A stretch of DNA of 38,958 nt from the IMG/VR virus record IMGVR_UViG_3300046000_005057, positions 1-38,958 of that record, one strand, 5' to 3'. The DNA comes from a virus. Positions 11,791 through 30,747 of the stretch are shown here, one piece after another. The notes below the pieces were generated by a model. That model searched no databases and was not told the origin of the DNA. It saw nothing but the letters and a program-made list of their open reading frames with translations. The first letter of the stretch is position 1, and each line of letters opens with the position of its first letter. The position numbers and the translations under genes were made by a program.

Positions 11791-12743
11791 TGGCTGAGAA
11801 AAAGCAAATCAAACAGAAGGCTACATCTGAGGTGCAAACTTCGGGTGTAGTCCTTTTTGCGTTCGGTAAGACAGCTTACTATTGGGCAACATTCAACCTT
11901 GCGTTTTCAATTAAATATCACAACCCGAATATTAAGATTGCAGTATTCACGGATGATATTGATGCCTTACGAGGATCTGTTTACAACTCTGATTACTTCG
12001 ATTCAGTTAATCAAATTGACATTAACGACCTTTCAACAGACAAGCGTTTTGATCCTGCTAAGTTGAAATTAAGTTTATACAAATATCTTCCTTTCGATTA
12101 CAATCTTTACTTGGATGTGGATGCAATCGCATTAAAAGACTTGCAGCCAATGATTGATGAATTGATCGGAGCGAATAAATATTACGTTACCCACACGGTC
12201 GGTTATCACACCATTAAACAAGGGCGAAACATTCCAACAATGCAATGGGCGTGGGCTGACGATATCTGGAAGCAATACAACTTATCCGATAAGGCAATAC
12301 TTCCGGCAATCAATAGCAGTATGCAATTCATTGTTAAATCTGATGAGGCAAAGAAACTTTACGACACCGCATTTGAGTTATTTCAAAATCCAATCCCGGT
12401 TAATAAGCTGCGGATGAAATGGGGCAACGGTCAGCCTGATGAATTATACATGAACATCGCATTGGCTAAACTCGAACACGATCCCAGCTTTAAAAACGAG
12501 GGGCGTGTTGGTAAATCTGAATCAGGTTTTATTCACTTTGCAATGCGGAGATCATTAACATACGAGGAAGTTATCGAAAACTTTTATCTTCAATCCTATT
12601 ACGGCGGCGTTCGGTTTACTCCCTTGTTTTACACAGAATGGATTGATAGGATTTTAAGACGGGATTTGAGCAGGGTAGGAATCACACACGAGTTTTTTAT
12701 TGAGAAAATAACTAAGTACAAACACGCCGATAATAAGAAATGA
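11790..12743 (+). CDS. GT-A-fold glycosyltransferase
   Basis: The 317-residue protein starts with a short lysine-rich lead and then a Rossmann-like nucleotide-sugar fold: VVLFAFG at residues 20-26, IKIAVFTDD around 48-56, and YLDVDAI (DVD at 109-111), the metal-binding DxD of GT-A enzymes. KLSLYKYLPFDYNLYLD is typical of family 8-like transferases and of the glycogenin-like fold. It opens a run of four coupled genes for glycosyl- and methyltransferases between the major tail and portal genes. Acceptors could be virion proteins, host glycans or modified bases. Fold call strong, substrate unknown. Confidence 0.8.
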   Translation: MAEKKQIKQKATSEVQTSGVVLFAFGKTAYYWATFNLAFSIKYHNPNIKIAVFTDDIDALRGSVYNSDYFDSVNQIDINDLSTDKRFDPAKLKLSLYKYLPFDYNLYLDVDAIALKDLQPMIDELIGANKYYVTHTVGYHTIKQGRNIPTMQWAWADDIWKQYNLSDKAILPAINSSMQFIVKSDEAKKLYDTAFELFQNPIPVNKLRMKWGNGQPDELYMNIALAKLEHDPSFKNEGRVGKSESGFIHFAMRRSLTYEEVIENFYLQSYYGGVRFTPLFYTEWIDRILRRDLSRVGITHEFFIEKITKYKHADNKK

Positions 12744-13948
12744 AAGTAAGTATAATTATACCGTGCAAAGGACGATTAGAGCAGTTAAAACAATGCTTGC
12801 CAACGGTATTAAATCAGACGTATGAAAATATTGAGGTGGTGGTTGTTGATTATAATTGCCCGGAGAACACGAGCGGTTACTGTGATTCGATTGGCGTTAA
12901 TTACGTGAAGGCGAATGTTCCTGCTGACTATTGGAATCTTTGCAAGGCACGGAACTTTGGTGCGAGAAATTCAACAGGAGATGTTCTTTTATTTCTTGAT
13001 GCTGACACTATCTTGATGCCGCAATTCATTGAATCAGAGTTGGCTAAATTGGAGTTAGGTTCTTTTTTAACTGGATTAGTTCAACCGCCGTGGAATGGTT
13101 GCGGTTGTTTGTTCGTGTATCGTAACGACTTTGAAAATGTGCGAGGTTACAATGAACTATTTGAAGGTTGGGGATATGATGACTTCAATATGTACGAACG
13201 ATTGTCGCATTCTGATTTAACTCATTATAAGTTCTCACCTAACCTGATCGAAAATCTTTCACACGAAGATTCTGGACGTAATGAGTTTCACGGCAATGAA
13301 GATAAATACAAATCGAAAGACCGAAACTTCAAAATACATTTAAGCGGTAAATTCACCTCATCCATAAATATGACAAGAACAGATATTATAAATCACTTGA
13401 TTAAAAAGAACGGGTATAAATCTTATCTTGAAATTGGAGTTCGAAACCCGAATGATAACTTCAATTTGATCGAATGCGAATTAAAGACGGGTGTTGATCC
13501 TGATCCAAATGCAAAGGCAACACATACGATGACTTCTGATCTGTTCTTTGCCGCCAATCAATGGAATTATGACATCATCTTTATTGACGGCTTACATCAT
13601 GCCGATCAGGTATTAAAAGACTTGTTCAACTCAATTCGAATATTAAGCAAAGGTGGTACTATTGTTTGCCATGATATGAATCCACCAAAGGAATCAAATC
13701 AGATTATACCTTTTGAAGCTGCAGGAGAAATGAATTGGACTGGCGATTGTTGGAAGGCATGGGTTGAACTTCGGCAATTAGGTGGATATTCAATGAAAGT
13801 ACTTAATACTGATTGGGGCGTAGGTGTAATTCAAGTTGACGAATCGGTAAAGGCTTTGAAGATAAGCGAAGAAATAACTTACGCAAACCTAGACAAGAAC
13901 CGTGTTAAATGGTTGAATCTTGTTAATCCTGAATTTGAATATTTATGA
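12740..13948 (+). CDS. Family 2 glycosyltransferase fused to a SAM methyltransferase-like domain
   Basis: Residues 1 to about 200 are a family 2 glycosyltransferase: VSIIIPCKGR at 3-12, VVVVDYN, the ARNFGARNSTGD segment and DADTI (DAD at 87-89), followed by the acceptor-side GWGYDDFNMYERL. From about residue 212 the chain continues as a class I methyltransferase-like domain: SYLEIGV (SAM loop region 228-234), DIIFIDGLHH at 278-287 and VCHDMNPP near 309-315, the pattern of the Methyltransf_24 group. No stop or frameshift separates the halves, so this is one 402-residue protein. It could add a sugar and then methylate it. It overlaps both neighbours by ATGA. Confidence 0.82.
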   Translation: MKVSIIIPCKGRLEQLKQCLPTVLNQTYENIEVVVVDYNCPENTSGYCDSIGVNYVKANVPADYWNLCKARNFGARNSTGDVLLFLDADTILMPQFIESELAKLELGSFLTGLVQPPWNGCGCLFVYRNDFENVRGYNELFEGWGYDDFNMYERLSHSDLTHYKFSPNLIENLSHEDSGRNEFHGNEDKYKSKDRNFKIHLSGKFTSSINMTRTDIINHLIKKNGYKSYLEIGVRNPNDNFNLIECELKTGVDPDPNAKATHTMTSDLFFAANQWNYDIIFIDGLHHADQVLKDLFNSIRILSKGGTIVCHDMNPPKESNQIIPFEAAGEMNWTGDCWKAWVELRQLGGYSMKVLNTDWGVGVIQVDESVKALKISEEITYANLDKNRVKWLNLVNPEFEYL

Positions 13949-28716: not shown

Positions 28717-28723
28717 GTTAGGC
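28717..28723 (+). repeat. Left core site of the cassette array
   Basis: GTTAGGC is a canonical GTTRRRY core with no attC-like palindrome to its left, so it looks like an attI-type or secondary site where the array joined phage DNA. Confidence 0.6.
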
Positions 28724-28729
28724 GATATG

Positions 28730-29404
28730 CTAAAACAACCGCACTTGCGACACGAAATCATCGTATCTTTTGCACGATTTGTTAAAATATTCCTCATCAA
28801 TTTCGCAACCTGTAAAATGTAAATTAGCTTTATTAGCTGAAATACGAGAACTGCCTGAACCCAAATGCGTATCTAAAACTTTCATTCCTTCTGTTGCAAA
28901 GTGTTTAAAAATAAAGTCATATAGATAAATAGGTTTTTGCGTTGGATGAAATCTTTGTTCTTGACCTTGAGTTCTTTGTTTACATATTTTAGCAACTTTA
29001 TCAAATGAAGTCCAAGCATACTCTGCCATTGCAAAAGAAATATCTTCTGGTTGTAATTTATCCCAAATAATAAAACATTTGTTTGGTGGTAAATCAAAGT
29101 AATTACCTCCCCAAATAATCTGTTCTTTTGATACTCTAAATAGTTCTATAAAATATTCCATTTCGGGTATTGATAAATCCCAATTACCATTTTCATTATG
29201 GTATCTTTTAAATCTTCCTCCACTATTTACTACACTTTCTCCCAAACCATAAGGTGGGTCAACCACAGCCAAATCGAAGTATTTATCAGGGTAATGTTTC
29301 ATTAATTGAATACAATCCATAAGATAAACTTCCGAAGAAGCACAATCGCCTAACACGTGTTTGGCAATATGCGGGGTTTGGTGTTTAATTATTTGTTCAG
29401 TCAT
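28730..29404 (-). CDS. Cassette-borne DNA methyltransferase (DPPY type, beta class)
   Basis: The 224-residue frame contains AVVDPPYGLG (motif IV) near residues 45-54 and, later, KVLDTHLGSGSSRIS (motif I) and GCEIDEEYFNKS. This order, IV before I, marks beta-class N6-adenine or N4-cytosine methyltransferases. HPTQKP before motif I is typical. The first 17 residues are encoded inside the attC-like site, so the true start may be M29 (29320), just before the usual core start MDCIQLMKHYPD. The stop lies 12 bases from the left cassette boundary. No restriction enzyme partner is nearby, so it probably protects phage DNA from host restriction or marks it. Confidence 0.88.
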   Translation of the reverse strand: MTEQIIKHQTPHIAKHVLGDCASSEVYLMDCIQLMKHYPDKYFDLAVVDPPYGLGESVVNSGGRFKRYHNENGNWDLSIPEMEYFIELFRVSKEQIIWGGNYFDLPPNKCFIIWDKLQPEDISFAMAEYAWTSFDKVAKICKQRTQGQEQRFHPTQKPIYLYDFIFKHFATEGMKVLDTHLGSGSSRISANKANLHFTGCEIDEEYFNKSCKRYDDFVSQVRLF

Positions 29405-29481
29405 TTTTGTTATGTATTGTGATTAATCGAAAGTTTTGCGTATTTTTAACCCGCACATCGCCAAGCACGGGAACGTTAGGT
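29348..29481 (+). repeat. attC-like site 1
   Basis: R'' GCCTAAC (29348-29354), then CGTGTTTGGC (29356-29365) pairing with GCCAAGCACG (29460-29469), TGCGGG (29370-29375) pairing with CCCGCA (29450-29455), and R' GTTAGGT (29475-29481). The centre is A/T-rich. It contains the annotated 5' end of the methyltransferase frame. Confidence 0.75.
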
Positions 29482-29487
29482 GCAATG

Positions 29488-29715
29488 CTATTTCGACCAC
29501 GCACTATCATTTTTCAACATACGAAGGACAGCAGGAAAAATGTGTTGCAAGTCATTGGCTGTCATACCACTTTTTTCAGCGACTACTGCCATTTGATGTG
29601 CTAACATTGCTTCGGCTTCTGTATCTTCTGTGAACAGCCAATTTTGAACCATTGGGTGAGCAGGGAATACTTCTTTAACTCCCTTTCTCCATTTGAAATT
29701 TAAAACATTTTCCAT
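29488..29715 (-). CDS. Cassette-borne small hypothetical protein (75 aa)
   Basis: Started at ATG 29715 (MENVLNFKWRKG); an upstream ATG at 29745 lies in the attC-like site and is less likely. The product has a basic first part and a helical second half (AEAMLAHQMAVVAEKSGMT, DLQHIFPAVLRML). Its stop is 12 bases from the left boundary of its cassette, the same distance as in the methyltransferase cassette. Single small unknown genes are typical integron cassette cargo. Function unknown. Confidence 0.65.
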   Translation of the reverse strand: MENVLNFKWRKGVKEVFPAHPMVQNWLFTEDTEAEAMLAHQMAVVAEKSGMTANDLQHIFPAVLRMLKNDSAWSK

Positions 29716-29743
29716 TTTTATTTGAGTTTGTGAGAAGCACTGC

Positions 29744-29875
29744 ACCTAACAAGGTATTGCCAAAAGCAGGGCATTCTCGGTTAATTAATTATTTGTACTT
29801 CTATTGGGCATTTGTGCAAGGTTGAAACTTTCGTGTTCCAAATCCCTGCCTTCGGCAATACCCGAACCGTTATGC
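29744..29875 (+). repeat. attC-like site 2
   Basis: R'' ACCTAAC (29744-29750), GTATTGCC (29754-29761) pairing with GGCAATAC (29854-29861), GCAGGG (29766-29771) pairing with CCCTGC (29844-29849), and R' GTTATGC (29869-29875). Arms are separated by AAAA on one side and CTTC on the other, as in site 3. Confidence 0.78.
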
Positions 29876-30337
29876 GTCATGCCTCCCTGCTTCGTAGATA
29901 GTTTTGTGCTTACTGAACCGTTTTATTAAAAAGTTTTTCCAACGCTCTTTAATAAGAGTAAATTCAGTTATCCCATTTTTAAGTAATAATTCGTCTCCGA
30001 GCGTTAAATCAAAATAGATATTCTGTAATTGATGTAAATATTCAATTTGTATTCTGGCTTTTATATCCCACCTAAAATAATGCAGCATCTTATCTTCAAG
30101 CGAAAACGAGAATTTAATATGGTCAAAGCCACCTTCGTGACCAATCCGATAAATACCCTTGTCATAAATAAATCCAAGTTTGAATAATATTTTGTCCGTA
30201 ATAATCACAGGAGTAAATATATCCTCTGGAAGTGGCACGAATATTCCCGTCATTATCGCCAAATGTCCTGCCGTAACTTTATTTATTTTACCGTATCGTA
30301 AAATGTAATTTCCAATTCTTAATTCTTGTGGTCTCAT
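29870..30337 (-). CDS. Cassette-borne LRIGN/HQLQN family protein
   Basis: Started at ATG 30337 (MRPQELRIGNYI), giving 155 residues; the frame is open to 30373. The opening LRIGNYI and the late EYLHQLQNIYFDLT are hallmarks of a small protein family that I know from Bacteroidota genomes and their phages, usually annotated as hypothetical. Its TAA stop is formed by the core-site sequence (TTATGC) itself, as in many integron cassettes whose reading frames end in the recombination site. The 101 bases between its start and site 3 hold no other gene. Function unknown. Confidence 0.72.
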   Translation of the reverse strand: MRPQELRIGNYILRYGKINKVTAGHLAIMTGIFVPLPEDIFTPVIITDKILFKLGFIYDKGIYRIGHEGGFDHIKFSFSLEDKMLHYFRWDIKARIQIEYLHQLQNIYFDLTLGDELLLKNGITEFTLIKERWKNFLIKRFSKHKTIYEAGRHDA

Positions 30338-30438
30338 TTTTTTTGTTTTATTTATGATTAAATTAATTGCCAACGCTTTAAAACTTTTTAATAAAACTAC
30401 TTTATCGTTTCATAGCAACTTCCGTGAATGGTACGAAC

Positions 30439-30571
30439 GCATAACAGCACCTACCAAAAAGGCGGGGTTATGTGGTTCATTGGTGTTTTTTTCTTCTATC
30501 ATAATTTTATTTTTAAATTGATAATTTCGTTTTCTAAATCCCGCCCTTCTGGTATGTGCAAAACGTTATGA
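30439..30571 (+). repeat. attC-like site 3, right end of the array
   Basis: R'' GCATAAC (30439-30445), GCACCTACC (30447-30455) pairing with the TGGTATGTGC region (30550-30559, one bulge), GGCGGG (30461-30466) pairing with CCCGCC (30540-30545), and R' GTTATGA (30565-30571). No matching GCTCATAAC was found further right, so the array ends here. With the untranslated part of cassette 3 it fills the 30338-30624 gap. Confidence 0.75.
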
Positions 30572-30624
30572 GCAAGTAACAACCGAGCATTTGAACTAAT
30601 CGGAAATTCCGAACGGTTCGTTTA

Positions 30625-30747
30625 TCATCCTTCATAGAAAGTATCATCTTCGTTATTATCAATCCTTTTTCGTGATCTCTTGGAGGTCAGGATGGAAATC
30701 ATTGCAGCCCAAGTGATAAGAATGCCAAGAACTATGTAGTCTTTCAT
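30625..30747 (-). CDS. Small membrane protein coupled to the repressor gene (40 aa)
   Basis: The ATG overlaps the stop of the repressor gene (ATGA), so the two are co-translated. The product has one membrane helix (IVLGILITWAAMISIL) followed by a basic stretch (KRSRKR) and an acidic tail. A tiny membrane protein made together with a phage repressor could act in superinfection exclusion or immunity, but the function is a guess. Confidence 0.6.
   Translation of the reverse strand: MKDYIVLGILITWAAMISILTSKRSRKRIDNNEDDTFYEG

Follow-up and report, generated by a model that had tools for sequence, protein, structure and literature searches.

We present a phage-borne array of gene cassettes in which each cassette ends in an attC-like hairpin, and we conclude, with a probability of roughly 0.85, that it is an integron-type cassette array located at a fixed site of the phage genome, with turnover of its cassettes and with inverted gene polarity. 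The window, that is, the whole analysed stretch of 38,958 nucleotides, is a single viral record whose host is probably a member of the Bacteroidota. Three abutting units fill positions 28718–30565, and the initial annotation had the coordinates of these three consecutive cassettes right to the base. It missed that all three genes lie on the minus strand and are thus reversed with respect to the recombination polarity of the sites.

The left phage flank (28600–28717, plus strand) ends at the fixed recombination border ...GGGAG|TT and is 92–96% identical in contigs L006/L143, and the right flank (30566–30650, plus strand), which starts with TTATGAGCAAGTAACAACCGAGC... at the right recombination border, is common to contig L150. 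Between the flanks, cassette 1 (28718–29475, 758 bp) consists of a reversed DNA methyltransferase gene and attC1 (29345–29481, plus strand; R'' on the left, R' GTTAGGT on the right, the bottom strand being the minus strand), cassette 2 (29476–29869, 394 bp) of a reversed 75-aa gene and attC2 (29741–29875, plus strand; R' GTTATGC), and cassette 3 (29870–30565, 696 bp) of a reversed 155-aa gene and attC3 (30437–30571, plus strand; R' GTTATGA). Neither attC2 nor attC3 has an R' box that conforms to GTTRRRY. The first 10, 10 and 9 bases of cassettes 1, 2 and 3, respectively, are perfectly complementary to the cassette's own R'' (GTTAGGCGAT to ATCGCCTAAC in cassette 1; R'' ACGCATAAC in cassette 3); the perfect complementarity claimed earlier therefore holds throughout, and only the lengths given for it (10, 9 and 9) need correction.

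The cargo is as the initial annotation described it. Cassette 1 encodes an N6_N4 DNA methyltransferase of 224 aa (28730–29404, minus strand; PF01555, 4.2e-14), the start codon and first ~19 codons of which fall within attC1. The 75-aa protein of cassette 2 (29488–29715, minus strand) has homologues in contigs L121–L126 and no assigned function, with no match in Pfam, NCBIfam or PHROG or among annotated phages or plasmids. The 155-aa protein of cassette 3 (29870–30337, minus strand), also of no assigned function, contains LRIGN and HQLQN and matches phrog_10066 (function unknown, 1.9e-8); the stop codon of its gene is formed by the R box. Read by eye, an open frame of ~30 codons (30410–30502, minus strand) runs from the attC3 loop through the arm and R box, upstream of gene 3 and not fused to it. 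The whole 39-kb record yields no tyrosine recombinase or PF00589 match, in agreement with the earlier statement that no integrase is encoded.

The three sites measure 134, 132 and 133 nt (132–134 had been proposed), and each consists of R'', two paired arm segments and R'. A hand-written descriptor assigns them scores of 20.8–22.6, compared to a best score of 17.5 in 40 dinucleotide shuffles of the window. The attC covariance search that had been suggested was run with a model, R1, trained on 17 sites of other phages with the window excluded. It returns exactly three matches in the 39-kb window, namely attC1 (95.8 bits, E 1.1e-18), attC2 (93.6 bits, E 3.5e-18) and attC3 (99.5 bits, E 1.8e-19), and nothing more up to E=10, which puts the scores well clear of background. 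Pairing holds for 87.8% of cells in the training alignment, and 21 of 28 pairs have changed on both sides; because the structure was set by the analyst from the same sites, the pairing percentage is partly built in, an effect that touches the double changes less. Covariation scores 0.645, compared to 0.186 for shuffled alignments (0/500) and at most 0.18 when partners are slid by 1–3 columns. A relative of attC3 in Flavobacterium phage sniff9-1 likewise has paired changes in the L arms. A gathering-threshold Rfam scan of the window gives no match. The attC loops show no enrichment of TAnnTTTG, the promoter motif of Bacteroidota, which gives no support to the idea that attC carries a promoter.

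Folding is strand-biased. As single-stranded DNA, the minus strands of attC1, attC2 and attC3 fold with z-scores of -2.5, -2.8 and -3.5 relative to shuffles, whereas the plus strands (-0.9, -0.7 and -0.9) do not go beyond shuffles. Two conserved features exist on the minus strand only: L position 5 forms a non-standard pair in 10/17 training sites, mostly C.A (T.G when read on the plus strand), and 16/17 sites have a G.U pair. The R1 scores of the two strands lie far apart (for one site, 107.8 versus 25.6 bits). In classical attC the recombining form is likewise the folded bottom strand, which extrahelical bases and an unpaired spacer set apart (PMC2727003). The phage sites have the bottom-strand marks of canonical cassettes in the form of a conserved non-standard pair, 5/1 spacers and a terminal loop, although at the first mismatch of the L arm they have a C.A pair where classical attC has a bulged G.

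Comparison with related phages demonstrates turnover at the locus. Different cassettes occur between the same exact borders, and the same cassettes occur in other phages, both in keeping with the integron-type reading of the initial annotation. The left border G|TT is followed by other first cassettes in L141, L143 (=L006), L145 and L150, with L140 (=L008) joining at a point near it, and at the right border L150 has a different last cassette joined at G|TTATAAGCAAGTAAC. The empty junction GGGAG|TTATGAGC that had been anticipated was not found among the relatives, where other cassettes lie between those flanks; the cassette-free relatives L144 and L147 (=L007) show another junction. Cassette 2 recurs in L121/L122 and L123 at 93–95% identity with identical ends and other neighbours, and L158 contains a homologue of cassette 1 with the same ends. 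The latter (L158 2923–3733) is a mosaic cassette, its attC being 95.6% but its gene body ~68% identical to cassette 1.

Cultured Flavobacterium phages from the Baltic provide the cleanest case. Around the site sniff9-1 and lillamy9-1 have 99.9% identity, but sniff9-1 carries two additional whole cassettes, joined precisely at G|TT; the empty junction of lillamy9-1 recurs in morran9-1. The body of the lillamy9-1 attC matches the left-hand attC of sniff9-1, a match that assigns the cut to the right-hand R box and establishes the polarity. Phage sniff9-1 has 14 R1 matches, and at least a dozen R1 sites extend over the early region of lillamy9-1 (L129 2251–8960), a large cassette array. The same methyltransferase gene is accompanied by wholly different attC sequences in snork9-1 (L198 910–1085) and sniff9-1 (L128 6960–7130), with the same R boxes around them, as would result from an exchange of the attC only.

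The gene starts at the attC in 29 of 35 non-redundant phage sites, with the opposite arrangement in one and five ambiguous, some low scorers among the 35 being probably false. Junction mapping gives the same polarity. The phage attC therefore lies 5' of its gene, opposite to canonical cassettes, in which it lies 3'. In 12 contigs with P0001-related methyltransferase cassettes, of which L174 and L190 are seemingly duplicates, the ATG falls within the site and an additional leader extends the protein at its N terminus. Homologues outside cassettes mostly start near the core domain, with no leader and no site at the start. The restriction of the ATG and leader in the site to cassette-borne methyltransferases indicates that attC and the 5' end of the gene travel together.

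Two related phage lineages carry an integrase beside the array. In L124/L130 and L131 a 277-aa Xer-like tyrosine recombinase directly adjoins the arrays; L130 and L131 share a common phage backbone and an integrase region that is 99.4% identical, and upstream of the border TAAC|GTGTATATGTA the arrays of L124/L130 and L131 differ entirely. L195 has an integrase 48% identical to these, six sites, the border TAAC|ATGTATATGTA and, beside the integrase, a homologue (58%) of the window's methyltransferase cassette. An attI-like border, TAAC|RTGTATATGTA, is conserved between the two lineages. The best family for these integrases is the XerA type (191–216, cut-off 220), and against the IntI family (TIGR02249) they reach 150–195 bits, below the cut-off of 265. 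In an alignment to the structure of the V. cholerae integron integrase, its residues 180–243 face only about 21 phage residues, so the IntI-specific insertion is missing; at that insertion the phage integrase is about 43 residues shorter than VchIntIA. The locus is consequently not a complete integron of the IntI class, given a window devoid of integrase and relatives whose integrases are insertion-less and score below IntI. An integrase is present in 4 of 24 related records, some of them fragments, and integrase-less arrays are commoner in this sample. A scan of genome contigs with the phage integrase gave only a distant match in Nitrosomonadales. Plasmids of Pontibacter, Rufibacter, Emticicia and C. 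oryzae that encode integrase relatives contain no R1 site, and a Persicobacter plasmid contains one weak R1 site. On the Rufibacter tibetensis plasmid (L139 8400–10760) a 484-aa tyrosine recombinase is followed by small same-strand genes separated by repeats that look like attC by eye (CGGCCGACGGCC hairpins), with no R1 match.

The R1 matches, covariation, strand-biased folding, exact G|TT borders and two-cassette difference together support the integron reading. One could nevertheless suppose that this is an ordinary host-derived array of chromosomal-integron cassettes, brought in passively by a host IntI with nothing phage-specific about it. Such arrays, known as CALINs, have been published for phages, with five of six tested phage attC sites recombining with IntI1 (PMC9892861), and a Chryseobacterium plasmid bears seven sites of the same model. 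On that plasmid, however, the genes have canonical polarity in contrast to the inverted phage arrays, the cassettes recur in different phages and at one fixed locus, and two phage lineages have their own integrase beside the array; we thus regard passive acquisition as rather unlikely. Homologous recombination between phages via short conserved hairpins, with no site-specific step, might draw on the partial conservation of R boxes and arm segments across neighbouring cassettes and on the wholesale replacement of one attC between sniff9-1 and snork9-1. This we consider improbable, as the junctions keep returning to one set of a few bases (G|TT), with only about 5–13 nt of shared sequence there, both ends of each unit are mutually complementary, and the arms covary instead of being conserved. 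That the hairpins are instead mRNA elements (5'-UTR regulators or terminators), as the better folding of the gene-sense strand and the start codons inside the hairpin might suggest, is highly improbable because it leaves the TAAC/GTTA invariance, the complementary unit ends and the G|TT borders unexplained and no Rfam family matches, although such a role could exist in addition to recombination.

In the integron-type mechanism that we propose, a cassette would comprise a gene and its attC-like site, the minus (bottom) strand of which would fold into a hairpin in single-stranded DNA, and a tyrosine recombinase would cut and join this hairpin at the R box (G|TT). Cassettes, often with DNA methyltransferases, would in this way be gained, lost and swapped at the fixed site. 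The attC, being 5' of the gene, would frequently supply a start codon and N-terminal leader, so that a captured gene would bring its own translation start; the leader is presumably translated. Since no recombinase is encoded by the window phage, one has to be supplied in trans. The best candidate for this helper is the Xer-like integrase beside the arrays of related phages, the putative catalyst at the phage sites, with a host integrase as the alternative.

The cargo at the window locus varies, with the N6_N4 methyltransferase in the window, two methyltransferase-like genes in L145 and a C5-methyltransferase-like gene in L150, the latter two contigs being assigned by motif only. Protection of phage DNA from host restriction is a likely function of the cassette methyltransferases, judging from their family and from a correlation with published plating data. 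Among the Baltic Flavobacterium phages, neither lillamy9-1 nor morran9-1 has the cassette-borne methyltransferase; according to PMC7077304, these two were chosen for re-growth on strain LMO6 in a study of the reduced plating of some LMO9 isolates, and all LMO9 phages with reduced plating are reported there to lack one specific methyltransferase. The snusmum6 phages also lack the cassette methyltransferase, yet were isolated on LMO6, and therefore the plating data are consistent with repeated methyltransferase swapping at the locus and with such a protective role, without being proof. Elsewhere in the window, positions 1196–1987 strongly match a phage queuine tRNA-ribosyltransferase (phrog_6059, 4e-53), possibly a DpdA-like DNA 7-deazaguanine modification enzyme and hence a second anti-restriction route, and positions 12740–13948 encode a 402-aa protein with a family 2 glycosyltransferase domain and a Methyltransf_24 domain.

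We lean, if only slightly, towards the broader view that Bacteroidota phages have an integron-like system of their own, with an insertion-less Xer-type integrase, an attI-like site and inverted cassettes with attC-encoded starts and leaders, that trades anti-restriction methyltransferases among other genes, the window being an integrase-less satellite of it. If this is true, integron-style capture is not merely a bacterial tool leaking into phages; the phages run a variant with a different enzyme and a reversed gene layout, in effect a market for anti-restriction genes. The IntI insertion has been described as essential for integron function (PMC8138268), and since the phage system seemingly does without it, the system would be relevant to the evolution of single-strand hairpin recombination from Xer-type recombinases. 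It is also directly testable, with cultured Baltic Flavobacterium phages that are exactly two cassettes apart and for which plating data are published. We found no description in the open-access literature of inverted polarity with attC-borne starts, of an Xer-like integrase beside such phage arrays, or of a cassette locus that exchanges DNA methyltransferases time and again.

Among known systems the closest are the phage CALINs (Qi et al. 2023, PMC9892861), which are, like the window array, integrase-less attC arrays of Bacteroidota and other phages with methyltransferase cargo, and include that of Polaribacter phage P12002L, which carries methyltransferases and a site active with IntI1. The window fits this class in having at least two attC-type sites (three) with an R''/R' core and paired L arms, no integron integrase in the 39-kb record, complementary cassette ends and mobile units bounded at G|TT. 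The R1 E-values (1.8e-19 to 3.5e-18) uphold the CALIN-like array of the initial annotation, but the published arrays mean that on this point it is not new. The P12002L sites have weak R1 scores, on the gene-sense strand as in the window, and two of the three are much shorter than the window sites. The accessible text of PMC9892861 reports no inverted polarity, attC-borne starts, locus turnover or neighbouring Xer-like integrase. Treponema integrons (PMC3607928) share an unusual relative orientation of integrase and cassette genes, but there intI is transcribed toward attI with the cassettes downstream, whereas in the phage arrays the cassette genes read toward the integrase. The Chryseobacterium plasmid NZ_CP041688 has the same attC type (seven sites, R1 83.6 bits) and a short Xer-like integrase 35–41% identical to the phage integrases; it differs in being a plasmid with canonical gene polarity. 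Its array contains two near-identical ~180-bp repeats ending in GTTA (L135 7882–8066 and 9983–10155). With classical integrons the phage arrays share the R''/L''/L'/R' anatomy, complementary ends, G|TT borders, the bottom-strand hairpin and, in two related phage lineages, an array beside an integrase and an attI-like border, and they differ in the reversed gene orientation, in integrases without the IntI insertion, and in the arm mismatch and spacers.
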